IMG/VR virus record: IMGVR_UViG_3300025141_000238
Coordinates: 1-41,110 of that record
Direction: 5' to 3' (one strand)
From: a virus
DNA: 41,110 nt
Position numbers and translations under genes: made by a program. Shown piece after piece: positions 4,784 through 32,725 of the stretch (position 1 is its first letter; each line of letters opens with the position of its first letter). The notes under the pieces were generated by a model. It was given only the letters and a program-made list of their open reading frames with translations, did no database searches and was not told where the DNA came from.

Positions 4784-4816
4784 TACAAATTAACCTCTTA
4801 ATTAAATACAAGTTAG

Positions 4817-4890
4817 TACCCTCTAGTGGACTCGAACCACTGACCCTCGGCTTAGAAGGCCGATGCTCTATCCAACTGAGCTAAGAGGGC
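4817..4890 (-). tRNA. tRNA-Arg (anticodon UCU)
   Basis: Cloverleaf on the minus strand: 7-bp acceptor stem (with one G-U at position 1), D arm with TAGCTCAGTTGGATAGAGC, anticodon stem TCGGC/GCCGA with loop CTTCTAA (anticodon TCT, reads AGA), T arm with GGTTCGAGTCC. No CCA is encoded; the bases after the discriminator A are CTA. A promoter 12 bases upstream would start the transcript about five bases before the tRNA, so the RNA probably depends on RNase P and host CCA addition. Confidence 0.93.
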
Positions 4891-8214: not shown

Positions 8215-9963
8215 CTATAAAAACTCAAAGGAAAAGGTTCTTTTTTTCCTCTCCATAGCAATAACGCAATACGCCCAAGCGTGTGTTAAGTGGGGGTCTA
8301 ATCCAAGATAGTTCCACTTATATCTATAATTCGTTGGGTCTGACTTACTTTGTACAAGCTCTCTAATGACCGACTTTAGGTGTAAAAAGAGAGATTGTTC
8401 GCAAACAAACTCAGGATCATAACTTCCAGTCTTAAAATTTCGTACTGTCTGTACGAGTCCTCGTGGGTGAGGGCACTCGACCCTCCTATCTACCCACTGC
8501 TTCAAAGCATACTCGATACATTTGTATCTGTCTAAAAAAACAGTCCACTTAAACTTCAAGTCTTCACTGCTTCGCCTAGAGTAAGACTTGTCTGAACCCT
8601 TTGTCCTAGAGTTTTTATCAGACCACTTCACCATCTCCTGAGAGTCTTTGTAGTAGGAGAGAAACACCCTTCCTGGGAATGCTCTGGCAAAGTCTTTCGC
8701 CTCGTTAGCATTTGGTAGTGCATCCAAAACACATAAGTCAACATCATATTCCTGCATCAAAGTGTAGAGCCTTTTAAACGGAGTCACCACCTGACCATCC
8801 ACCTTGTATTGCTCTGACTGGTTATCGACTACCTCTACATGGATAAGTCTACGCTTATTATCAACTAATTTAGCTATAATTAAGTGTAAGTTTCCAGACC
8901 TCTGGTCAACTCCCATACAAGTGTTTTTCATATCGGATCCCCAGTCTATATCCGTATTGACACAAGACTGAAGCTCCTCCTCCGTAACACCTACATTCTC
9001 CTCGTCAACGTAAGGTTTTCCCAACGTTGCGTTATAAAACTCTTTAGGATTGTCTGTGGTTATATATCTTTCCCATACCTGTTTTGCAGACCTTGTAGCC
9101 GACAACATCTGGTGGATGTGAAAACTATCGTACTCAGACGTTGGATTGTGAGCCACGTACCCACCATCTTGTGGGTCTAAGTCATCTTTCCCGCATTTTG
9201 GGCACCTATAAAAATAGTCCGGTCTTCCACTTTTAACATTAGTTCTCGAACCAATACACCCAGGAAAATTATCCGACAATATAATACCATCAGGACAGAA
9301 GCATTTCGTATGCCACGTCTTCTGCGTACCTAACATAAACGCTTTATCAATAGCATCATTTGGGTAACCAGCAGTACTAATCTTATACAATTCTGGGTCT
9401 GCACAACCACTCAATCGCTCCTCAAGCTGGTTAATCGTAGATGGGGCCATCAGGCGCACCTCATCAAGACACAATATATCCATTGGCGTTGAGTCCATCG
9501 AAGCCACACCGCCAGTATAAGACAGATACAAAGAGCTATTACCAAACTGAACCAAGTCAATACTCAGAGTCCCAGATAAAACCTCTTTAAACTCGGGTAT
9601 GCTGTACACAAGCGGTCTAAGTCTATCTTTTGAAAACTTTGCAACAGAGTCAAAAACCGGGAAGTAAAAACCCCCCTTTCTAGCTACCATCCTGCCCGTC
9701 TGCTCTGAAAACCTTAGTTTATGTAAAACTTTCAGAATCATCCAGATAGTCAAACCTACCTGAGTGCATTTCCTGATAGACATATACGGGTTATTACACA
9801 GGTATATGTCCTTCAAAAACTTTCTGCCTTTGAAGGTGAACGGCTTGTGATCTACATCAAATTTATTTAGAGCGCACCAAACACCCAGGTTCTCTTTCCT
9901 GAGCGCGTCTATCTGTTCTTTTTTAAGACCACCGACACTGGGGAACTCTTCTGGAGCATCCAT
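8215..9963 (-). CDS. terL: Terminase large subunit, GpA family
   Basis: DNA-packaging motor and nuclease of the lambda GpA type. The N-terminal ATPase has a variant Walker A KCTQVGLT (residues 65-72; GpA-type proteins use a Q/R-x-G form) and Walker B ILCLDE (163-168). A zinc-knuckle CPKCG lies near residue 255, as in GpA proteins. The C-terminal nuclease part contains GVDQRSG near 355 and LCVLDALPNANEAKDF near 415, the acidic positions expected for an RNase H-fold nuclease. The length of 582 residues is normal. ATG at 9963 has GAGATA upstream. The NYN ribonuclease gene lies seven bases before it and the probable small subunit directly after it. Confidence 0.93.
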   Translation of the reverse strand: MDAPEEFPSVGGLKKEQIDALRKENLGVWCALNKFDVDHKPFTFKGRKFLKDIYLCNNPYMSIRKCTQVGLTIWMILKVLHKLRFSEQTGRMVARKGGFYFPVFDSVAKFSKDRLRPLVYSIPEFKEVLSGTLSIDLVQFGNSSLYLSYTGGVASMDSTPMDILCLDEVRLMAPSTINQLEERLSGCADPELYKISTAGYPNDAIDKAFMLGTQKTWHTKCFCPDGIILSDNFPGCIGSRTNVKSGRPDYFYRCPKCGKDDLDPQDGGYVAHNPTSEYDSFHIHQMLSATRSAKQVWERYITTDNPKEFYNATLGKPYVDEENVGVTEEELQSCVNTDIDWGSDMKNTCMGVDQRSGNLHLIIAKLVDNKRRLIHVEVVDNQSEQYKVDGQVVTPFKRLYTLMQEYDVDLCVLDALPNANEAKDFARAFPGRVFLSYYKDSQEMVKWSDKNSRTKGSDKSYSRRSSEDLKFKWTVFLDRYKCIEYALKQWVDRRVECPHPRGLVQTVRNFKTGSYDPEFVCEQSLFLHLKSVIRELVQSKSDPTNYRYKWNYLGLDPHLTHAWAYCVIAMERKKRTFSFEFL

Positions 9964-9970
9964 TTATATC

Positions 9971-10540
9971 TCAACTATCTATAATTTCATCTAAAAACTC
10001 TTCACTACCTCGTGACTGGTTCTGTCTGTACCTCTCCTTGGGGTCATATACAACATCATCATCTAAATAGAAGACCTCATCAGCTATTTGAGAAATGGCT
10101 TTGTTTAATGACTTTTCAAAAGAAACAACTACCACCTCTTTACCAAGATCTTTAAGAGGGTCAAGTAAGTATATGAAATCTCCGTCACCACTTACCAGTA
10201 TAAAAGAATCATAACTATCTTTATGGTAAAGGGCATCTGCCGTAATCCCAACGTCCCAGTTCGTATTCTGGGCATTCCTTCTATCAGGATCAAAATGAAG
10301 ATTTCTCTTCTTTATGTTGAACCCTAAAGCTCTCAAAGTGTTAACGAAGTTAGTCTGGTCATGGTTCGGACTAGCTATCATGTAGGCAGTGCAGTTTACC
10401 GATGAGTTCTTCTCTTCTGCTATGTCTGACACATAGTCTAACAACTTTTTAAAATCAACTCTGAAATTAGGACCGTGTGTATACCTACACGAGTACCACA
10501 AATTCTGAATATCAACTGCAACTTGGTATCTCTTAGCCAT
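9971..10540 (-). CDS. NYN-domain (LabA/DUF88-like) ribonuclease
   Basis: 189 residues with the NYN/PIN-like fold pattern: VAVDIQNLW (D10, N13), a central WDVGITADAL (D96, D102) and LVSGDGDF (D119, D121). These acidic residues form the metal site of NYN RNases such as LabA/DUF88 proteins. It probably cuts RNA; in a phage this could mean tRNA or mRNA processing or turnover. ATG at 10540 follows TAGG. It sits between a 23-residue Cys-rich ORF and the large terminase gene, probably in one operon with the Hjc-like nuclease. C-terminal ~40 residues are charged and look disordered. Confidence 0.87.
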   Translation of the reverse strand: MAKRYQVAVDIQNLWYSCRYTHGPNFRVDFKKLLDYVSDIAEEKNSSVNCTAYMIASPNHDQTNFVNTLRALGFNIKKRNLHFDPDRRNAQNTNWDVGITADALYHKDSYDSFILVSGDGDFIYLLDPLKDLGKEVVVVSFEKSLNKAISQIADEVFYLDDDVVYDPKERYRQNQSRGSEEFLDEIIDS

Positions 10541-11940: not shown

Positions 11941-12026
11941 TGGTGGGGCTGGGGGGAATCGAACCCCCACAGCCTAAGGCTAACGGATTTTAAGTCCGTC
12001 GTGTCTACCTATTCCACCACAGCCCC
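11941..12026 (-). tRNA. tRNA-Leu (anticodon UAA), CCA encoded
   Basis: 86 bases on the minus strand: acceptor stem GGGGCTG/CAGCCCC, a D arm, anticodon stem ACGGA/TCCGT with loop CTTAAAA (anticodon TAA, reads UUA), a long class II variable arm (TAGCCTTAGGCTG region), T arm GGGGGTTCGATTCCCCC, discriminator A and an encoded CCA at 11941-11943. It abuts the stop of the 12027-12311 gene, so it must be cut out of a longer transcript. Confidence 0.95.
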
Positions 12027-12311: not shown

Positions 12312-12324
12312 AGTTACCTCCTAG

Positions 12325-12397
12325 TGGACCCCCAGGGATTTGAACCCTGAACCGTCCGGTTATGAGCCGGATGCTCTAACCATTGAGCTAGAGGTCC
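12325..12397 (-). tRNA. tRNA with CAU anticodon (Met or Ile2)
   Basis: 73 bases on the minus strand: acceptor GGACCTC paired with GGGGTCC, D arm TAGCTCAATGGTTAGAGCA, anticodon stem TCCGG/CCGGA with loop CTCATAA (anticodon CAT), T arm CAGGGTTCAAATCCCTG, discriminator A. No CCA is encoded. The G1-C72 pair excludes initiator tRNA. The short D loop with CAATGGTTAGAGC is more like the AUA-reading Ile2 tRNAs (lysidine-modified C34) than elongator Met, so identity is open. Confidence 0.92.
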
Positions 12398-12410: not shown

Positions 12411-14345
12411 TTAAGCAGAGATGCTCATACCATCTCTTCTTTGCAACACAATTTCATCATTGAAATAACTCTTCAACTCGTCTCTGTGAGTAATCACAAA
12501 GACAGATGACTTTCTTCGCGCCAGATCTTCCAATACCTTGATCACATAGTAAAGGCCCTCTGCATCCACACCCTCAAAAACTTCGTCTAGAAGTAAAATA
12601 TTAAACCTCTTGCCAGACCTGGACGATATGAAGTCATTAAAGGCCAAAGCTACCGCCAAATCTACGCGCCTTCTCTCACCACCACTATTACCCTCGTAGG
12701 TTTCTGAAGCCTTTTTATTTTTAATATCAAGGTTAAAATCCTCTCTATACTCACCGGAAGACAACTGTTTTACGGTGTTGAATCTTGCAGTGATACCGCC
12801 ATCTGTTAGTATGGTAAGATAATGATTAAGTCTCTCATTTATGTAGGGGACGACCTTATCCAACATAAAAGATCGAATACCTTTTCGAGAGAACCCGTCT
12901 ACCCAAAATTTAACGTAATTTATCTCTTCAGACTTTTCCTCAATTTCAGAGTCAAGAGACTTAATTTTTTCTCTACAAACATCTCTTTGTCGCTCCTGGG
13001 AACTTAGTACGCCCTTCCAAGGGACCTCCTCAGTCTCCTCTTCAAGCTCTGCAATGCGGTTCTTCAGAAAATTTATTTCTTGGGCATATGTCTCAATTCG
13101 AGATTTAAGAGATTGCTTCTTAGACTCTATCTTATTTTTATGGATCAACTCACTCGTAAACTGCTTAGATAGGTCTCTAGCAGTCCGTATGGAAGTTTCT
13201 ATCTTTGCTTTTCGACTCTCGTAAGATTTAGACAAAGACTCTAGTTTTTCAGCCAAAGATTTAACAGATCGCAAGTTATCCGCAATCTCAAACTCAAGAT
13301 AATCTTTATGGCTCTCAATACTATCGACCGTTACTACAGACCCACAATGGTTGCAGTGTTCCCCTGCGTCACTACCATCGCTAAGAGCAGCTATCCTGGA
13401 TTTAAAAGACCCTATAGCGCCGTCTATTCTACCTTTACGACCTATGATTTCGTCTCTACTCTCACGATATCTTTTAGTGAGACTATCCCTTTTCAGCTTT
13501 TCAGACCTCTCTAACTCCTCACACTGAGAAATTCTATCCTCGATATCCGAGACATCTTTTGTTTCAGGCATGTCAGATAGGGCTTTTTTCTCGCCGGACA
13601 ACTTTTCAATGCAGTACTCTAGCTCCTCATCTACGGTCTTTTTCTTTTGCAGCAATTCACGCTCACCCTCTGCGATTCGCCTCTTACATTCAACTATACT
13701 TTTAGTAAGATCTTCTATCTTGTTCAGGTGGTGTGTGCGTTCCCTACTAAGAATTTCTACCTCGGAGGAAAGGCCACTCAATGCCTTTTTAGAGTGATCA
13801 TGCGCCCTAGCAAAAGCCTCGATGTTAAGAACCTTCTCCATCGTAGACTTTTTCTCTGCGTCACTCATCTCGGAGAACCGCTTTAGGTTCTTGCTGTGAC
13901 CCTGACCAAAGATAATAGAATTGGCAAAAGATACCTTATCCATCCCAATGACAGACTCGATAAACTCCTGAGTTTCTCTATTATCCTTACCTCTGGAGTC
14001 AATTCCATTTATGTAAAGGTAAAGATTGTTCTTTTTCTTAGTGTGCTTTCGGTATCTCTCTATTTGGTACTTCGTATCACCATCTACCATTTGAACAACA
14101 ACAGAACAGTCCTTTTTCACTGTGTTGTTTACCACACCGTCAGCAGACCTGATGTTGCGTAAGGTGTCCCCAAAAATACACCAGTACACCGCTTCCAAGA
14201 TACAAGACTTCCCACTCCCGTTACTGGAACTAGTAGTGTCGTCCAGGTTCTCCCCAGCAATACGAGTAAGTCCGCGACCGCTAAGAATCGCGTCTACTTC
14301 ACCAATTATAAGAAAATTTCTGATTCCTACAGATTGAATTTCCAC
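12411..14345 (-). CDS. SbcC/Rad50-like ATPase (T4 gp46 type)
   Basis: ATPase subunit of an SbcCD/Mre11-Rad50-type nuclease that processes DNA ends for recombination. Walker A SNGSGKS at 41-47, coiled coil about 180-480 broken by a zinc hook CNHC at 331-334, the ABC signature SGGERR at 554-559 and Walker B ILLLDE near 583-588. At 644 residues it is shorter than bacterial SbcC and close to phage gp46, because the coiled coil is short. It starts with GTG at 14345 and has no strong ribosome site. Its partner SbcD is at 15983-17062; between them lie five small genes and a transglycosylase, which is unusual. Confidence 0.93.
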   Translation of the reverse strand: MEIQSVGIRNFLIIGEVDAILSGRGLTRIAGENLDDTTSSSNGSGKSCILEAVYWCIFGDTLRNIRSADGVVNNTVKKDCSVVVQMVDGDTKYQIERYRKHTKKKNNLYLYINGIDSRGKDNRETQEFIESVIGMDKVSFANSIIFGQGHSKNLKRFSEMSDAEKKSTMEKVLNIEAFARAHDHSKKALSGLSSEVEILSRERTHHLNKIEDLTKSIVECKRRIAEGERELLQKKKTVDEELEYCIEKLSGEKKALSDMPETKDVSDIEDRISQCEELERSEKLKRDSLTKRYRESRDEIIGRKGRIDGAIGSFKSRIAALSDGSDAGEHCNHCGSVVTVDSIESHKDYLEFEIADNLRSVKSLAEKLESLSKSYESRKAKIETSIRTARDLSKQFTSELIHKNKIESKKQSLKSRIETYAQEINFLKNRIAELEEETEEVPWKGVLSSQERQRDVCREKIKSLDSEIEEKSEEINYVKFWVDGFSRKGIRSFMLDKVVPYINERLNHYLTILTDGGITARFNTVKQLSSGEYREDFNLDIKNKKASETYEGNSGGERRRVDLAVALAFNDFISSRSGKRFNILLLDEVFEGVDAEGLYYVIKVLEDLARRKSSVFVITHRDELKSYFNDEIVLQRRDGMSISA

Positions 14346-14475
14346 TTTTATGTTTACCTGTTTCTATAAAATTATTCGGCCAATCTTCTAGCGGCCTATT
14401 ACATATCGGACACGATTTATCTAAAACTATTACTCCGCAATCATAACACAACTTGTACGCTGAACCTTCCGGCAT
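14299..14475 (-). CDS. Small zinc-ribbon protein, 58 aa
   Basis: Two CxxC pairs, CYDC (about residues 10-13) and CPIC (about 22-25), make a compact zinc ribbon, followed by a polar tail. The ATG at 14475 has GAGGAG eight bases upstream; an in-frame TTG at 14511 lacks one. The gene overlaps its upstream neighbour by 46 bases and the start of the SbcC-like gene by 47 bases, so translation is probably coupled across all three. Exact function not visible. Confidence 0.6.
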   Translation of the reverse strand: MPEGSAYKLCYDCGVIVLDKSCPICNRPLEDWPNNFIETGKHKSGNSICRNQKFSYNW

Positions 14476-14765
14476 TCTGAACTGCTCCTCAAACACATAT
14501 CTTTTTGGCAAGCAATAACTAAGTTTATTGCCTCAATACTAGTCTCTATGCGATGAGAAGAAACACAATCTAAAAGTTTGTCTGTCGTACAACTGTCTAA
14601 GTCTAATAAGTTTTTATTTGAGCATCCGTAAAAAGAGGCTCCCAGTATGATCAGTATCACTAACAAAAAAGCGCCTAAAACCTTACCGTTTTCACGCTTA
14701 AGGAACTCAATGGCCTCTGTGACAGTGCGCTTTAAGTCTTCAAAAGATTCTTTATCTTGGTACAT
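14430..14765 (-). CDS. Single-span membrane protein with Cys-rich outer domain
   Basis: 111 residues. A charged N-terminal ~28 residues is followed by a membrane segment (VLGAFLLVILIILGASFYGC) and then a ~60-residue domain with six cysteines (SCTT, LLDC, ACQKDMC, SEC, SCVM). The cysteine-rich part probably lies in the periplasm and forms disulfides. FYGC could be a weak lipobox but the segment is too far from the N-terminus to be typical. Next to a lytic transglycosylase, so an envelope or lysis role is possible. Start taken at ATG 14765, just past the upstream stop. Confidence 0.55.
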   Translation of the reverse strand: MYQDKESFEDLKRTVTEAIEFLKRENGKVLGAFLLVILIILGASFYGCSNKNLLDLDSCTTDKLLDCVSSHRIETSIEAINLVIACQKDMCLRSSSECRKVQRTSCVMIAE

Positions 14766-14766
14766 A

Positions 14767-15222
14767 TTATTCAAAAACAAGAGATTCTATATACGCCAAC
14801 CGCTTCTTAGTGCCCAATACCCTTCTAGCATAATACCTAGATTTTTTGGTACATTTATTACCTGCATTGTAGTGGCATAAAGCTTCTTTTTCATCCCCGT
14901 ACTTTGCTAGATACACTTTTAAAGCCCGAATACCCTCTACCAGAAGGTCACACCCTTCCAGCTTACCGTTGGGGCACCAGTATTTAGGTAACACCTGCAT
15001 AGGACCGCGAGCGCCAGCCTTACTTACCGCATGCTTATTAAACCCCGACTCGTGCCATGCCACAGCAACAGCCAAGTTTGGAGGGGCATCCATCTCAACA
15101 GCCAGGTCCATAACAGAGATGCATGTAGAAATCTTATCTGGCATCTTCTTCTCTATCCGATCATTCCAAGAATCTGAGTAGAATGATTGAAGTAAACAAA
15201 CACAAAGATAAAGATGTTCCAT
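14767..15222 (-). CDS. Lytic transglycosylase (SLT-like) endolysin or virion muralytic enzyme
   Basis: 151 residues with the SLT/goose-lysozyme-like signature: catalytic Glu in AVAWHESGFN (about residue 57), GARGPMQVLP, and CHYNAGN with the YNAG motif near 120. It cuts peptidoglycan strands at the MurNAc-GlcNAc bond. The first ~15 residues (MEHLYLCVCLLQSFYS) are hydrophobic and could act as an export or signal-arrest segment. ATG at 15222 overlaps the upstream stop (TGATG) and has GGAGG nine bases upstream. No holin gene is adjacent, but a single-span Cys-rich membrane protein follows. Confidence 0.87.
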   Translation of the reverse strand: MEHLYLCVCLLQSFYSDSWNDRIEKKMPDKISTCISVMDLAVEMDAPPNLAVAVAWHESGFNKHAVSKAGARGPMQVLPKYWCPNGKLEGCDLLVEGIRALKVYLAKYGDEKEALCHYNAGNKCTKKSRYYARRVLGTKKRLAYIESLVFE

Positions 15223-15542
15223 CACTTATAACCGCCTTTTCTATACTCTGCCCAAGCCCTGGATTCCTTCTCATACCAATCAACAACAAAAGTTTTTACA
15301 AATTTGTCTGGTAAATTGAGTAAACCATTCGCCTCTGCGTCAGATAGCTTAGTATATTTATAACCAAGTTTATTTAAGTCTCTCTCAACATTGTACAACT
15401 GACTACTGTTGTCGCACCTAATAATCCCTCTACCAAAATAACCAGATTCATTGTTAAGAGCACACTGCAAAACTTCTTCTACATGAAGTCCTCCACAGTG
15501 AACTTTTAAAAAAGCTGTCTGATCATTTAAAAATACGCCCAT
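15222..15542 (-). CDS. Hypothetical protein, 106 aa
   Basis: Not recognised. 106 residues, mixed alpha/beta, basic C-terminus (SRAWAEYRKGGYK), no membrane segment. It begins MGVFLNDQTAFLKVHCGG and its ATG overlaps the upstream stop (TAATG), and its own stop overlaps the transglycosylase start (TGATG), so it is locked into one translation unit with both neighbours. Confidence 0.6.
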   Translation of the reverse strand: MGVFLNDQTAFLKVHCGGLHVEEVLQCALNNESGYFGRGIIRCDNSSQLYNVERDLNKLGYKYTKLSDAEANGLLNLPDKFVKTFVVDWYEKESRAWAEYRKGGYK

Positions 15543-15982: not shown

Positions 15983-17062
15983 TCACTCTACGACTTCTGA
16001 AAGAATTTTTTTACCAACAGATATAAGCTTTGAAATATCTAAATTTTCAGTAGGTATTATATCTGAATTTGCGTAATCTTCCAATATTCCATAGAAACCT
16101 TTTTCTTCAGATAACTCCACCCTTTGTAGAGGAATATCTTTATCCTCAGGAGTAAACCTAAACTCAACACTCAGTGCGCCCAAAGAAAGTAACTTATCAG
16201 ATACCTCTTTTTTATCTGCCTCAGAAAGTTCTGACTTACTAACAACTCGAACAAACTTATTATGTGCGTCTTGTACATCAATACGGTCATCGACAACTAA
16301 AAACTCAGGGGCATTACATTTCTGTCTATCAATAGACATATCCTTTGAATCGAACACAACAAATGACTTTTCAAAGCCTACGTCATCCCACCTATGCTGC
16401 ATGGCAGACCCAATATAATGAAACTTCGGTCCAATTTGTTGTCCGATGTGGTAATGCCCACTGAATATGACATCCCATTTGTCAGGACACAACATAGGTA
16501 AACTCAACTCACACGGAATAACATAGTCCCCAGGTCCAATTTTCGCACCTTGAACTCCGTAATGGATCAATAGGATAGACTTTTTAACCCAGTCAGGCTT
16601 ATTTGATATTCCCTCTACAGCATGTGCTGCGATAATTTCCCCATCATCGTAGTAAGGGATCGTAAATAGCCCCACGCCAGCCCTCTTATCTAGAGACCAC
16701 CACTTTGGTTCATCTGCCACAAAGCAAGAACTACTAGAGTTAAACCTTTCTAGGGCGTGTATAGTGCCAGACCTATTAGCTTGGTCATGATTTCCTACAA
16801 GAAGAATACTCTTAACGCCATCACGAGATTCGGAGAGTATAGTTTCATGAATCTTATTATAAGTGTCTACGTCGATAGATTTTCTTCTATCAAATAAATC
16901 ACCACCAAATAACACCCACTTAGCCCCACAATCTCTCGCGTGAGTATAAACCTGTCGTATAACACCAACAGCGTCTAAAACACGACTGTTAGTCCCATGC
17001 TCCAACACACTCCCATTTGAATACGGGTGTGCATGCAAATCGGAAAATAAGCATATTTTCAT
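15983..17062 (-). CDS. SbcD/Mre11-like nuclease (T4 gp47 type)
   Basis: Calcineurin-like metallophosphoesterase nuclease subunit of the SbcCD-type complex. All metal-binding motifs are visible: FSDLHAH (D8, H10), GGDLFDRR (residues 53-60), GNHDQ (90-94), a conserved His in LIHYG near 168, and SGHYH near 205. The C-terminal ~100 residues form the capping and SbcC-binding part. The length of 359 residues is normal. With the SbcC-like protein (12411-14345) it would resect DNA ends for RecA-driven recombination and degrade hairpins or host DNA. Confidence 0.94.
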   Translation of the reverse strand: MKICLFSDLHAHPYSNGSVLEHGTNSRVLDAVGVIRQVYTHARDCGAKWVLFGGDLFDRRKSIDVDTYNKIHETILSESRDGVKSILLVGNHDQANRSGTIHALERFNSSSSCFVADEPKWWSLDKRAGVGLFTIPYYDDGEIIAAHAVEGISNKPDWVKKSILLIHYGVQGAKIGPGDYVIPCELSLPMLCPDKWDVIFSGHYHIGQQIGPKFHYIGSAMQHRWDDVGFEKSFVVFDSKDMSIDRQKCNAPEFLVVDDRIDVQDAHNKFVRVVSKSELSEADKKEVSDKLLSLGALSVEFRFTPEDKDIPLQRVELSEEKGFYGILEDYANSDIIPTENLDISKLISVGKKILSEVVE

Positions 17063-17081: not shown

Positions 17082-17264
17082 TTAAACGCACTTTAGAAAG
17101 CCAAGACACCCACCATCAACACAGACACCGACCCAGCAATCCCCATGGCCGCATTGGTAATCGTGCTTACAAGGCATCTCTTTCATACCCTTAGCCGTGT
17201 GTGGGTCATCAACTCCCGATACCATCATCATGGCCATAAGAATCCACATATTATATAAACTCAT
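17082..17264 (-). CDS. Putative secreted six-cysteine peptide
   Basis: 60 residues: a hydrophobic signal-like segment (residues 3-17, LYNMWILMAMMMVSG), a short linker, then a compact domain with cysteines at 32, 38, 43, 48, 53 and 59. The regular spacing (5-4-4-4-5 residues between) and Gly-rich loops look like a disulfide-stabilised knot, as in exported Cys-rich peptides. The ATG at 17264 is chosen because AAGGA lies upstream; it overlaps the upstream gene end by 14 bases. The mature peptide would act outside the cytoplasm. Target unknown. Confidence 0.6.
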   Translation of the reverse strand: MSLYNMWILMAMMMVSGVDDPHTAKGMKEMPCKHDYQCGHGDCWVGVCVDGGCLGFLKCV

Positions 17265-17466
17265 CTTTATCCTTAACGTTCTTAAGCATAGAAGATAACC
17301 TTCTACCAATCATATCGTCTAAGCTATCAGAGACAACACTCTCAAGCTCTTTCAAATCCTCTTTGGCCTCTACCTCGGCTTCGATGGCCAAATCGAACCT
17401 TGCGCTCTCAAAGTTGCCCAAGTTAACTGTCTTTCCCATATTTATAGTGGCTTTTTTCAATTTCAT
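17251..17466 (-). CDS. Conserved phage-type small protein, 71 aa
   Basis: Contains KTVNLGNFESARFDLAIEAE, a pattern I know from small phage and clostridial hypothetical proteins (T-[IV]-N-L-G-N-[YF]-x-S-[AI]-[KR]). The first half should be a beta hairpin and the second half an amphipathic, acidic helix. No function is known to me. ATG at 17466 follows AAGGGT closely. It lies 17 bases downstream of the RecA gene and overlaps the start of the six-cysteine peptide gene. Confidence 0.7.
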   Translation of the reverse strand: MKLKKATINMGKTVNLGNFESARFDLAIEAEVEAKEDLKELESVVSDSLDDMIGRRLSSMLKNVKDKDEFI

Positions 17467-17483
17467 ACCCTTACTCTACTACA

Positions 17484-18554
17484 TCAGGTAGTTGATTGCA
17501 ACTCTTTTAGTAGTCTCTCTTCAATAATATTTTTTATATCTTTATTTTTAACAAGAAAGTCGCAAACAGCGTTCTTGCCTTGCCCTATGTTATTGCCGTC
17601 GTACTTATACCAAGACCCCGACTTCTCAATAATCCCAAGGTCAGTTCCCATGTCCACAATTTCTCCCATACGGTCTATGCCTTTTCCAAAAACAATATCC
17701 GTGGTGCAAGACTTGAATGGTGGAGCGAGTTTGTTTTTAATAACTTTAACTCTCACAGTATTTCCAACCGATATATCTCCTTCCTTAATACTCTTGATTC
17801 TATTGATCTGCGCTCTAACAGAGCAGTAGAATTTCAAAGCATTACCCCCAGGAGTGGTGGTCGGGTCTCCAAACATAACACCAATTTTTTGACGGGTTTG
17901 GTTAATGAACATCAGACACGTATTTGTCTTACTCACTATTGCGGTGAGTTTACGAAGAGCCTGACTCATCATACGAGCCTGAAGTCCGACATGATTCTTC
18001 TCCATATCCGCATCTAGCTCTGCTTTTGGAGTCAAAGCGGCTACAGAATCTATAACAACAAGATCAACAACATCGGCCTTAACGATGTCTTCAACAATAT
18101 TAAGGGCTTGTTCACCATAATCTGGTTGGGAGAAAAGAAGATCATCAACACTCACACCAAGATTCGTAGCGTATGCTAAATCTAAAGCATGCTCCGCATC
18201 AATGAACGCAGCCACGCCGCCAGCCCGTTGGCACTCTGCGATTGCATGCAATGTAAGGGTTGTTTTTCCACTGGACTCAGGACCAAAAATCTCAACAATT
18301 CTTCCACGTGGGTACCCCCCGATACCAAACGCATAATCAATGCCTATACTACCGGAAGATATAACACCGATATCTTTAACAGGAGATTCACCCATTTTCA
18401 TCAATGAGCCATCTCCATGTTTTTTACTTACATCAGCCATCAGCTTAGATAAAGCTTTTACTTTATCGGTCGAAAGATCCGCGTCGGGTTTTGTCCCCGA
18501 CACGGCGCTCTTCACAGACTTCGTCTTACTTCTAGAGGTAGACTGTAATTTCAT
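17484..18554 (-). CDS. recA: RecA recombinase, bacterial type
   Basis: Strand-exchange ATPase. It is of bacterial RecA type, not UvsX type: Walker A GPESSGKT at 91-98, [11 protein letters not shown] near 115, [15 protein letters not shown] near 165, the L2 region with [15 protein letters not shown] near 240, and a C-terminal domain ([14 protein letters not shown]). Residues 1-30 are a Lys/Ser-rich extension and the acidic C-terminal tail of many bacterial RecAs is missing; the tail normally dampens RecA activity. Its ATG overlaps the stop of the ssDNA-binding protein gene (ATGA), so both are made together. It would drive recombination-dependent replication and repair. Confidence 0.97.
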
Positions 18555-19504
18555 CCCTTACCCCCGCGAGCGACTTTTTTGAGTTCATCCAGCTTTTTCA
18601 AGATGTCTTTATCACCTTCTGATGCCTCTGAATCTTCGGACAAAACTTCATCCCACTCATCGGCATCCTCAACTTTAGTTTCAGAAGGTGCAGCAGGTTC
18701 GAATTCATCCTTCTCCTCCACTGGAGCAGGTTTCTCCTCAACAACGCTAGTCTCAATACGTTTAGTCTCGGTAGTGTTGCCACCTAAAGAAACCTGTGGA
18801 GACCCTGTACGAGGATCTAAGACTCCTTCAAAGATCTGCTCTTGCTCCTCCAAACTCCAATGTTTCACCGGAAATTCAACATCAAGATCATACAAATTAT
18901 CAAGCGCCTCTGGGACAACCAATTCCTTCGGACTAGCACCAACCTGGATATCGTATCGTGTCCAAGCCCGGTCACCTGTATTTGAAGTAACACTGGCTGT
19001 AATTTTAAAATTACGACCCGTCATCGGATGTGTTAAGTCCCCGTACTCAGGGTTTTGGAAATAAGAACGGATGTCCGAAAATAAACGCCAACTGTACTGA
19101 TAAATCTGAACCTTTGGTGTTCCGTCTTCATTATGCGGGTCATCTACATCAATCACGTTCGACATAACAGATGCACTTGCCTTCATACGACGGGCTAGGT
19201 CCTGCTTTCTAGGATCCCCTGCATTGTAATAGTCATTTACAGTCTGACAGAAAAAACAAGGCTCCTCAAAATGACTATAATTACAAGGTAGTGGTGGAGT
19301 CTTACTCATCCCAATGGGGATCCCCCAGTGTTGCTTCCTTACAATATAAAATTTAGGATCTCGTGGACCTCTCAAAAATCGAATTACTTTTGATTCTCCT
19401 GCCGGAATTTTCAAGCGGTCGATACGCTTTCTTTTGCCAAACTGACGCTCATCACTCTTCATCTCGCCTAAATCAAGACTAATAAAATCTTCATATTTAC
19501 TCAT
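18551..19504 (-). CDS. gp32-like single-stranded DNA-binding protein
   Basis: 317 residues. The core has a basic segment ([17 protein letters not shown]), an OB-fold-like part and a zinc motif with Cys/His in [17 protein letters not shown] (about residues 75-91), as in phage gp32-type proteins. The C-terminal ~90 residues are strongly acidic ([20 protein letters not shown]), the usual protein-docking tail, ending in a basic tip. It coats single-stranded DNA and would organise RecA and polymerase. ATG at 19504 has AGGAGA upstream; seven residues of in-frame upstream sequence lack a ribosome site. Confidence 0.85.
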
Positions 19505-19514
19505 TATCTTTCTC

Positions 19515-19988
19515 CTATTGTTCAAAGACTCTTGGTTCTACTGTTGTTTTTCGTTGATCTGCACCGGCATTTATCAAAGCTTGTAGCTTATGATTCAAAG
19601 CGTTGCAGGTTGCCTTAAAAAGTTGCTTCTGCTTCCGCGCCTCAATTAACTCAAGCCTCAATTCTTGATACTCTGGGTTTGTAATAATTGTGTTTTTCAG
19701 TTTCGTTTCTGTGCTCTTTATTCCAGCAGCCTCAAAGTCTGACCTCGTTTGGTGGTCCAACACGGCGTATACCCTCTCAAGCTGATATTCAACTTGTTTT
19801 TCCTGGCTTTCTGCAACAGAGCAAAGGTAGCCATATGCAGCTACCAATTCAGGCTGTCTAAAAAATTCTTCCTGAATGTTAGAAAAGTCAATCTTCACAT
19901 CTTTTACAGGATTTAACTTCAGATAAAGATCTGTAATATCAAACTTGTTACCATTCACATTCATTTTATGCTGGTCTATCTCACTCAT
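19515..19988 (-). CDS. Hypothetical helical replication-linked protein, 157 aa
   Basis: Not recognised. 157 residues; the first ~35 are mixed, the rest are long helices likely to coil (RLELIEARKQKQLFKATC). Placed directly between the polymerase gene (stop and ATG adjacent) and the ssDNA-binding protein gene, so a loader, mediator or accessory factor for ssDNA-binding protein or RecA is reasonable, but that rests on position alone. GGAG in the polymerase stop region is the ribosome site for ATG 19988. Confidence 0.65.
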   Translation of the reverse strand: MSEIDQHKMNVNGNKFDITDLYLKLNPVKDVKIDFSNIQEEFFRQPELVAAYGYLCSVAESQEKQVEYQLERVYAVLDHQTRSDFEAAGIKSTETKLKNTIITNPEYQELRLELIEARKQKQLFKATCNALNHKLQALINAGADQRKTTVEPRVFEQ

Positions 19989-31456: not shown

Positions 31457-31891
31457 TTACTTAGAGTAACGAAGGACGAGTGCCGTGGTTACCGACCCCA
31501 CGGCCACACCCCCAACTAGCACCAGAGTAGCTTTCCACCAAGAGAAATCATCTTTTTGTAAACTTAATAAAACTTCGCTTTGCAGAAGTTCTATCGAATT
31601 ATCCTTTTCATTTATTATACTTAGGTACTTGTTTTCTTGATTTAGAAGTTTTTTATCAAATAGATCTTGATCTACAAGTCTTAAGTCCGAAAGACCCTTT
31701 AACTTTATCTCACAAGTTTCTTCACACAATTTTATCTTCCCATATAGCTTTAACGCAGTTGCGTTACTCATACATTGCATGTCTGTATCAAATGTGACCG
31801 CTGTATTAGCACGTATTAGCTTTACAGGCCCTTCAGCAAGGGTAGGGATAGGGAAGCACACCAGGAGGGCTATAGCGACGAATTTAAGCAT
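31457..31891 (-). CDS. Exported protein with C-terminal membrane span (spanin-like)
   Basis: 144 residues: an N-terminal signal peptide (MLKFVAIALLVCFPIPTLAE), an outer domain with three cysteines (residues ~40-60) and a helical coiled-coil stretch, and a C-terminal membrane span (ATLVLVGGVAVGSVTTALVL) with a basic tip. A protein anchored at the inner membrane with its body in the periplasm is the topology of a spanin-type or envelope-bridging protein, but there is no good lipobox. It lies just after a coiled-coil membrane protein, with which it may pair. ATG at 31891. Confidence 0.58.
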   Translation of the reverse strand: MLKFVAIALLVCFPIPTLAEGPVKLIRANTAVTFDTDMQCMSNATALKLYGKIKLCEETCEIKLKGLSDLRLVDQDLFDKKLLNQENKYLSIINEKDNSIELLQSEVLLSLQKDDFSWWKATLVLVGGVAVGSVTTALVLRYSK

Positions 31892-31894
31892 TAT

Positions 31895-32305
31895 TTAGTC
31901 CAATATATCGTTGAGTATATTATTGACAGCATCACTGTCATCTTCCAACGCTTTATTTTCTTCTTTTATGTTATCTTCTGCGTCTTTAACTTTTCTGTCA
32001 GTTTCTTTCTGAATATGTTCTTTTTGTTTTTTAGCTTCGTCTTCAAACTTAGAGTCTTTTTTATTCGATTCTTTCGTAATCTTCGCAATTTTTTCTCGCT
32101 CTGATTTTTTGATGTCGTTGAGACGGCCTATGACCTTTTCTGTTGGGCTTTTCTTCCCACCAGTCAGGATCCACAGGATCAATCCAACCAAGAAAGCGAC
32201 AGGAATCCAATAATACTTGTCCCACCATTCTTTGGAAAACAAGGTACTTTTTAAAAATTCCCATACACCACTAAAAAACTTAGATAAAACATTTAATACA
32301 ATCAT
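31895..32305 (-). CDS. Membrane-anchored coiled-coil protein (i-spanin-like topology)
   Basis: 136 residues: a ~25-residue amphipathic start, one membrane span (WIPVAFLVGLILWILTGG, about 33-50), then an ~85-residue coiled coil very rich in K and E (KKQKEHIQKETDRKVKDAED). This is the topology of inner-membrane spanins such as Rz. It is followed by an exported membrane protein and preceded by a holin-like gene, so a lysis cassette is plausible. No strong Shine-Dalgarno sequence precedes the ATG at 32305. Function inferred from topology and position. Confidence 0.6.
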   Translation of the reverse strand: MIVLNVLSKFFSGVWEFLKSTLFSKEWWDKYYWIPVAFLVGLILWILTGGKKSPTEKVIGRLNDIKKSEREKIAKITKESNKKDSKFEDEAKKQKEHIQKETDRKVKDAEDNIKEENKALEDDSDAVNNILNDILD

Positions 32306-32419
32306 ATTTAAAACCGTTTTTAATGGACAACCTAGTAAATTATTTTGAACCCTTGTGTCTTTTTTACTAATCGCTTAGCAAGCATCTAACCAATTGTGTG
32401 ACGTGACCTCTCCTCAACC

Positions 32420-32725
32420 CTATCGGCCAAGAAGAGTTTTCTTATGAAAAGCGTATAGACCATTAGCCACAAATCCCATGCAGCCCCCATAAATCCAAAG
32501 CGCACCTTGAGGCACATCTTTAAAGAAGAAGTTTTCTCCAGTAAAGGGAGCGTACACCAGGACAACCCCCAATAGCATTGTGGCAGGGACAACCCAACGG
32601 TTGAGTCCAATCTCTTTCATGCTTTTCACACCAACAAATTTCTTTGTGGCAGAAACCACGGCGTTCAAGAAGAAAGGAAGAACAACTTCTGGATGATTAC
32701 TGAGTAAACTAATTATATCGCCCAT
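32420..32725 (-). CDS. Holin-like membrane protein
   Basis: 101 residues with hydrophobic segments near 14-28 (VLPFFLNAVVSAT), 44-62 (RWVVPATMLLGVVLVYAPF) and 74-92 (ALWIYGGCMGFVANGLYAF), and a basic C-terminal tip (HKKTLLGR). Size, three spans and a short charged tail fit a class I holin, which forms lesions in the inner membrane. It follows the tail-fibre gene, a usual place for holins, with AAGGAG before the ATG. The downstream 114-bp gap (32306-32419) holds only a possible 17-residue ORF and an imperfect inverted repeat. Confidence 0.65.
   Translation of the reverse strand: MGDIISLLSNHPEVVLPFFLNAVVSATKKFVGVKSMKEIGLNRWVVPATMLLGVVLVYAPFTGENFFFKDVPQGALWIYGGCMGFVANGLYAFHKKTLLGR

Follow-up and report, generated by a model that had tools for sequence, protein, structure and literature searches.

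A gene for a six-cysteine mini-protein with a putative export leader was found within the recombination block of the window, that is, the whole analyzed stretch of 41,110 nucleotides (IMG/VR record IMGVR_UViG_3300025141_000238). The same gene is present at the same place in 14 other distinct IMG/VR viruses, where it likewise lies between a phrog_5189-like gene and sbcD. The existence of this family is well supported and so is, as far as can be judged from sequence, the export of the peptide. We tentatively favor a periplasmic peptide whose target may be the machinery that cuts peptidoglycan or lets DNA enter; it would resemble Spackle in its action without being homologous to it. Superinfection and lysis depend on small exported phage proteins, which are routinely overlooked owing to their size. 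Those that are expressed early and act in the envelope were known already; the six-cysteine family, which none of the searched libraries contained, is new.

The gene spans positions 17082 to 17249 on the minus strand and comprises 55 codons and a stop. The original prediction had placed the peptide at 17082–17264. A frame of 60 codons is present at these coordinates, but it runs on the minus strand from 17264 to 17082, and the plus strand of this segment is interrupted by stops. The start at 17264 is probably wrong as well. In the nearest relative (L002/L006) the corresponding codon encodes Arg, no start codon is present there, and the gene preceding the peptide terminates with ...GAGGAGTTTATATAAT-ATG. 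In the relatives the end of the preceding gene reads ...GAGGAnTTTATATAATG or ...TATAATATG, which is where the peptide starts; its start lies at or just past this stop codon in all relatives but one. Since L006 lacks a start codon at 17264 and the relatives begin at the stop of the upstream gene, the ATG at 17249 is most probably the conserved start. The five extra residues of the longer frame are not conserved as coding. A purine-rich ribosome site is located 6–11 nt 5' of the start in the relatives, and the site of the window, GATGAG, is weaker than theirs. The hydrophobic leader and the six cysteines were both present as originally claimed, the latter at residues 32, 38, 43, 48, 53 and 59 counted from 17264, corresponding to 27, 33, 38, 43, 48 and 54 in the 55 aa protein.

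After removal of duplicates the family set consisted of 15 distinct viruses including the window. With the peptide as query, L002 and L003 were recovered. With SbcD as anchor 23 viral loci were found, and in nearly all of them the gap between recA and sbcD contained a frame of 54–61 aa with a leader and six cysteines. Three more scans with the peptide yielded only viruses of this set. The peptide was confined to loci with the order recA, phrog_5189 and sbcD: a profile search of 115 records (the loci and the window) detected it at this locus only, and record-wide searches gave one copy per record. Peptide identity across the relatives ranged from nearly 70% down to approximately 20%. All 15 members carried a leader followed by C-x5-C-x4-C-x4-C-x4/5-C-x5-C upstream of sbcD. 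Homologues keeping the frame, the cysteine spacing and the leader, on which the original prediction had made itself dependent in advance, were found in 15 of 15 viruses at the same locus.

The peptide was absent from L023, L024 and L025. A different short hydrophobic frame with a single span fills the slot before sbcD in L024 (4637–4786) and L025 (4849–4998), a possible functional replacement of the six-cysteine peptide. Searches of phages (INPHARED), plasmids (PLSDB) and species genomes (GTDB) gave no relatives. The single plasmid match in PLSDB (E 0.7) lay at a site without annotated feature, and pattern matches in GTDB bacterial genomes included no confirmed relative of the peptide or of SbcD. 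A tblastn match in L004, a GC-rich contig, was discarded as the reading frame is unrelated. Matches of the L012 peptide in INPHARED (Acinetobacter and Pseudomonas phages, E 0.2–5) were rejected as well, since those inspected were located in annotated genes of 120–171 aa without leader context.

The cysteine domain CKHDYQCGHGDCWVGVCVDGGCLGFLKCV (17085–17171, minus strand) is under strong purifying selection while the leader drifts. All six cysteines were kept in 15 of 15 members with a spacing of 5-4-4-(4/5)-5, which is 5-4-4-4-5 in the window. Between the window and L006 the domain showed 4 nonsynonymous changes (69.8 sites) and 12 synonymous ones (17.2 sites), with a dN of 0.06 and a saturated dS of approximately 2, compared to 24 (62.7 sites) and 9 (15.3 sites) in the leader (dN/dS approximately 0.5). 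The dN/dS of the domain was approximately 0.03–0.1 in three pairs and that of the leader 0.5 to approximately 1 in two pairs, values that are approximate only wherever dS is near or above 1 and hence saturated. The pair L012/L016 followed the pattern of window and L006 with constraint mainly in the cysteine domain, constraint was found in leader and domain alike in L013/L015, and the silent distance of the domain in L007/L008 was saturated past estimation. The domain was 31–90% identical to that of the window, comparable to SbcD (56–74% where measured), and no sign of an arms race was seen in it. Most members share a W, a GxG and an AY-x-x-CV motif and are net acidic, not cationic. A chance ORF, in favor of which nothing can be said except the small size, is regarded as refuted by the occurrence in 15 distinct viruses, the kept cysteine spacing, the dN/dS well below 1 and the fixed position.

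The leader and a short variable spacer occupy 17193–17249 (minus strand). Judged by its composition, the segment combines an uncharged hydrophobic N-terminus MWILMAMMMVSGV with a signal-peptidase-like site between VSG and VD. A hydrophobic core with the first 12 residues uncharged was present in all 15 members, even though leader identity to that of the window was only 8–41%. Small-x-small sites as used by signal peptidase were found in 13 of 15 members; shuffled leaders averaged 8.0, and 0.4% of the shuffles reached 13. Together with the kept leader and cysteine spacing, the purifying selection and the uncharged N-terminus, these sites support the exported six-cysteine peptide of the original prediction. 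A basic n-region of the usual kind is missing from the leaders. Several leaders of SLT (lytic transglycosylase) proteins encoded at the same loci are likewise without basic residues, and the peptide leader therefore fits the local export style.

Three disulfides may be expected within the domain from the cysteine pattern and the putative export. The trimmed family domain of 37 residues (L012 and 14 others) was modeled by AF2 with a pLDDT of 90.3 and a pTM of 0.57, a confident prediction of a compact small fold; for the untrimmed peptide of the window only a poor model was obtained (pLDDT 54). In the domain model, strands 20–24 and 29–34 form a C-terminal beta-hairpin, accompanied by two short helical turns of three residues. 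Foldseek found nothing significant for this model in PDB or BFVD (best PDB E 2.9), which is weak evidence of novelty as chains of 37 residues score poorly. No significant match of the peptide was obtained in Pfam, PHROGs, NCBIfam or PDB sequences. Late nodulin (PF07127, best E 0.038) and Conotoxin_I2 (PF17557, best E 0.054; 14.1 bits versus a cut-off of 27) both stayed under the gathering cut-off, and a CxxDxxCxxxxCxxGxC stretch of 4r12 resembling the domain was below threshold. PADLOC matched one of the 15 members to PDC-M07B (E 0.0054), which we attribute to chance.

On the minus strand the transcription order is ssDNA-binding protein (18551–19525), RecA (17484–18554; Pfam RecA 1e-122 and RecA_C), the small phrog_5189-family gene (17251–17466), the peptide, the SbcD-like nuclease (15983–17062), two small proteins, the SLT lytic transglycosylase (14767–15225), a membrane protein of 116 aa (14430–14780) and SbcC (12411–14345). 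RecA is the first large gene upstream of the peptide in the block. The phrog_5189 gene stops 1 nt before the peptide start in the window, and its stop overlaps this start (TAATG) in most relatives. Additionally, the ATG of sbcD overlaps the peptide stop (ATGA) in L012, L013, L015, L016, L020 and L021, and the three small-to-large genes therefore appear to be translationally chained. These overlaps with replication and recombination genes suggest early or middle expression. A promoter scan gave fewer sites than in shuffled sequences. The 116 aa protein has one strong membrane segment and seven cysteines mostly beyond it; it was kept in L006–L008 and had no PHROG or Pfam match. Small phrog_5189-like proteins with the motif GRTxNLGNxESxRxDL were found at 79 viral loci (L036–L114) beside the window gene at 17251–17466. 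This upstream partner is widespread in other phages, whereas the six-cysteine peptide occurs in a subset of its loci only.

Eleven of the 14 testable loci encode an exported SLT shortly after sbcD; the sequence of L009 ends before this region. The SLT of the window (Pfam SLT 1.9e-12) is a candidate functional neighbour and starts with a hydrophobic leader without basic residues (MEHLYLCVCLLQSFYSDS). The SLTs that accompany the peptide belong to two different families, the first being syntenic in the window, L006, L007 and L008 and the second located directly after sbcD in L003, L010, L011, L012, L016, L020 and L021, where it exceeded the Pfam SLT cut-off in L012. L015, as a twelfth locus, carries an SLT elsewhere in the record. 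In the fragments L013 and L018 the peptide was present and no SLT was found; the converse holds for L023, which has an SLT-like gene and no peptide. A dedicated inhibitor of the SLT is therefore not required by the data. Proteins of 388–415 aa with a peptidoglycan-binding-like stretch, recognized by eye, are encoded 3' of sbcD in L013 (6076–7221), L015 (6058–7221) and L024 (6412–7656). In L013 and L015 the 388 aa protein stands in place of the block SLT, and that of L013 had no PHROGs match. The peptide had originally been placed between recA and sbcD for no obvious reason, a view that is weakened by the exported SLT sharing the block in most relatives.

Adjoining the SLT gene, L003 encodes a 608 aa protein (8245–10071, minus strand) with four Cu-binding_MopE motifs (E 2e-19), a weak VWA match and a lipoprotein-like start. 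We take this to be a surface protein of a sort common in Myxococcota, which is only a hint on the host.

The closest precedent is T4 spackle (gp61.3), an exported early protein with a signal peptide which inhibits the phage's own tail lysozyme (PMC7677548, PMC7650644). Its gene sp is located between the primase gene 61 and the helicase gene 41/uvsX, contrary to the earlier statement that no such phage gene was known in this position. Both are small phage proteins, exported and disulfide-containing (in the six-cysteine peptide presumably so) and encoded within a replication/recombination block; early expression and a cell-wall enzyme as target are known for T4. However, Spackle has approximately 75 aa in its mature form, one disulfide and a fully alpha-helical fold (PMC7650644), whereas the peptide has approximately 35–43 aa, six cysteines and a predicted beta-hairpin, so that the AF2 domain model is not all-helical. 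No Spackle chain appeared in the PDB-sequence profile searches to E 10, and the window peptide had no PHROG match. With knottins of the inhibitor-cystine-knot type (squash inhibitors, late nodulins, conotoxins) the peptide shares the leader, the six cysteines and a domain of 30–40 residues. Local similarities to 6u6g, a late nodulin (E 0.095), and MCo-52-2 (E 2.9) were weak and not significant, and no knottin was present in the Foldseek PDB listing (best E 2.9), which is weak evidence for such a short chain. A Cys4-Cys5 loop of 4–5 residues is long for a squash-type knottin. Myxo_Cys_RPT (TIGR04201) showed a weak partial fit in 4 of 15 full-length members (best E 0.033) and reached 10–11 bits in 3 of 10 domains scanned alone versus a cut-off of 25; these are repeat proteins, while the peptide is a single domain. 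A literature search of open-access papers found no precedent for disulfide-rich exported peptides encoded by phages.

Because of the exported SLT in the block and the T4 spackle precedent, an inhibitor acting in the periplasm or in envelope exclusion was ranked first, followed by lysis control and a host-envelope target. A putative early or middle operon from the ssDNA-binding protein, RecA and phrog_5189-like genes through the peptide to SbcD and the exported SLT would make a short precursor. The leader would carry it through the inner membrane and then be cleaved off, and the remaining peptide of approximately 35–43 residues would fold round three disulfides in the periplasm. There it may bind and block a component that cuts peptidoglycan or serves DNA entry, above all one belonging to a second phage arriving at the cell, and so cause superinfection exclusion in the way of T4 Spackle; alternatively, it may restrain the phage's own exported transglycosylase until lysis. 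Leader and cysteines in 15 of 15 members, domain-focused selection, gene coupling, the SLT in 11 of 14 loci, the spackle precedent and the confident fold argue for this scheme. Against it stand the SLT mismatches of L013, L018 and L023, the unrelatedness of Spackle, the leaders without basic n-region and the missing sign of an arms race. A stronger claim would make these the first known case of exported mini-proteins with three disulfides that a phage encodes and produces alongside its recombination machinery, having a fold outside PDB and inhibiting peptidoglycan-cutting or phage-entry machinery; it is unlikely to hold. The conserved mature domain of approximately 35 residues is easy to make and has a confident predicted fold, so the family is directly testable, with the exported transglycosylase next door as a clear candidate partner.

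Control of the phage's own lysis is a less probable but serious alternative, in which the peptide restrains or stabilises the co-encoded SLT, or serves as an envelope sensor in the manner of the T4 antiholin RI, and thereby determines when lysis occurs. The exported SLT in the same block of most relatives and the high conservation of the domain, as expected for a fixed internal partner, fit this role, as do the different candidate wall-acting proteins seen by eye near sbcD in L013, L015 and L024. However, the peptide is present in the fragments L013 and L018, in which no SLT was found, two different SLT families stand beside one peptide family, and a spanin-like gene, together with small membrane genes that are candidates for lysis, is weakly indicated elsewhere in the window (31.4–32.7 kb). 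Host functions such as a periplasmic protease, Dsb or a transport factor, rather than phage or lytic enzymes, are an only slightly less probable target; the surface conserved in most members (W, GxG, AY-x-x-CV) implies a conserved partner and any exported small binder would be compatible, but no specific partner is indicated.

A leader followed by six cysteines is typical of secreted disulfide-knotted peptides. This pattern and the sub-threshold resemblance to late nodulins and I2 conotoxins would suit a peptide that leaves the cell for signalling or to act on other bacteria or predators. A periplasmic location is more probable than release into the medium, because the conservation of the cysteine domain is similar to that of SbcD and unlike that of a fast-changing weapon. 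Most members are acidic rather than cationic, no release route or immunity gene was seen, and the gene lies among replication genes. The anti-competitor factor of the original prediction has a low probability. Even more doubtful is a cytoplasmic or membrane-anchored mini-protein that binds zinc or Fe-S, with the leader as anchor. Six cysteines could hold a metal and the missing basic n-regions would agree with an anchor, but most members have only a short uncharged hydrophobic run (12–18 residues; 20–24 in three) and the signal-peptidase-like sites exceed those of shuffles. Additionally, CxxC pairs, a usual mark of zinc or Fe-S sites, are missing from the domain, and zinc-finger families gave no match above threshold.

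Elsewhere in the window, three phage tRNA genes were found on the minus strand, Arg(tct) at 4816–4890, Leu(taa) at 11941–12026 and Met(cat) at 12324–12397. A probable lysis cassette is located at 31457–32725 on the same strand and comprises a signal-peptide protein with cysteines, a weakly Rz-spanin-like protein and a membrane protein of 101 aa.
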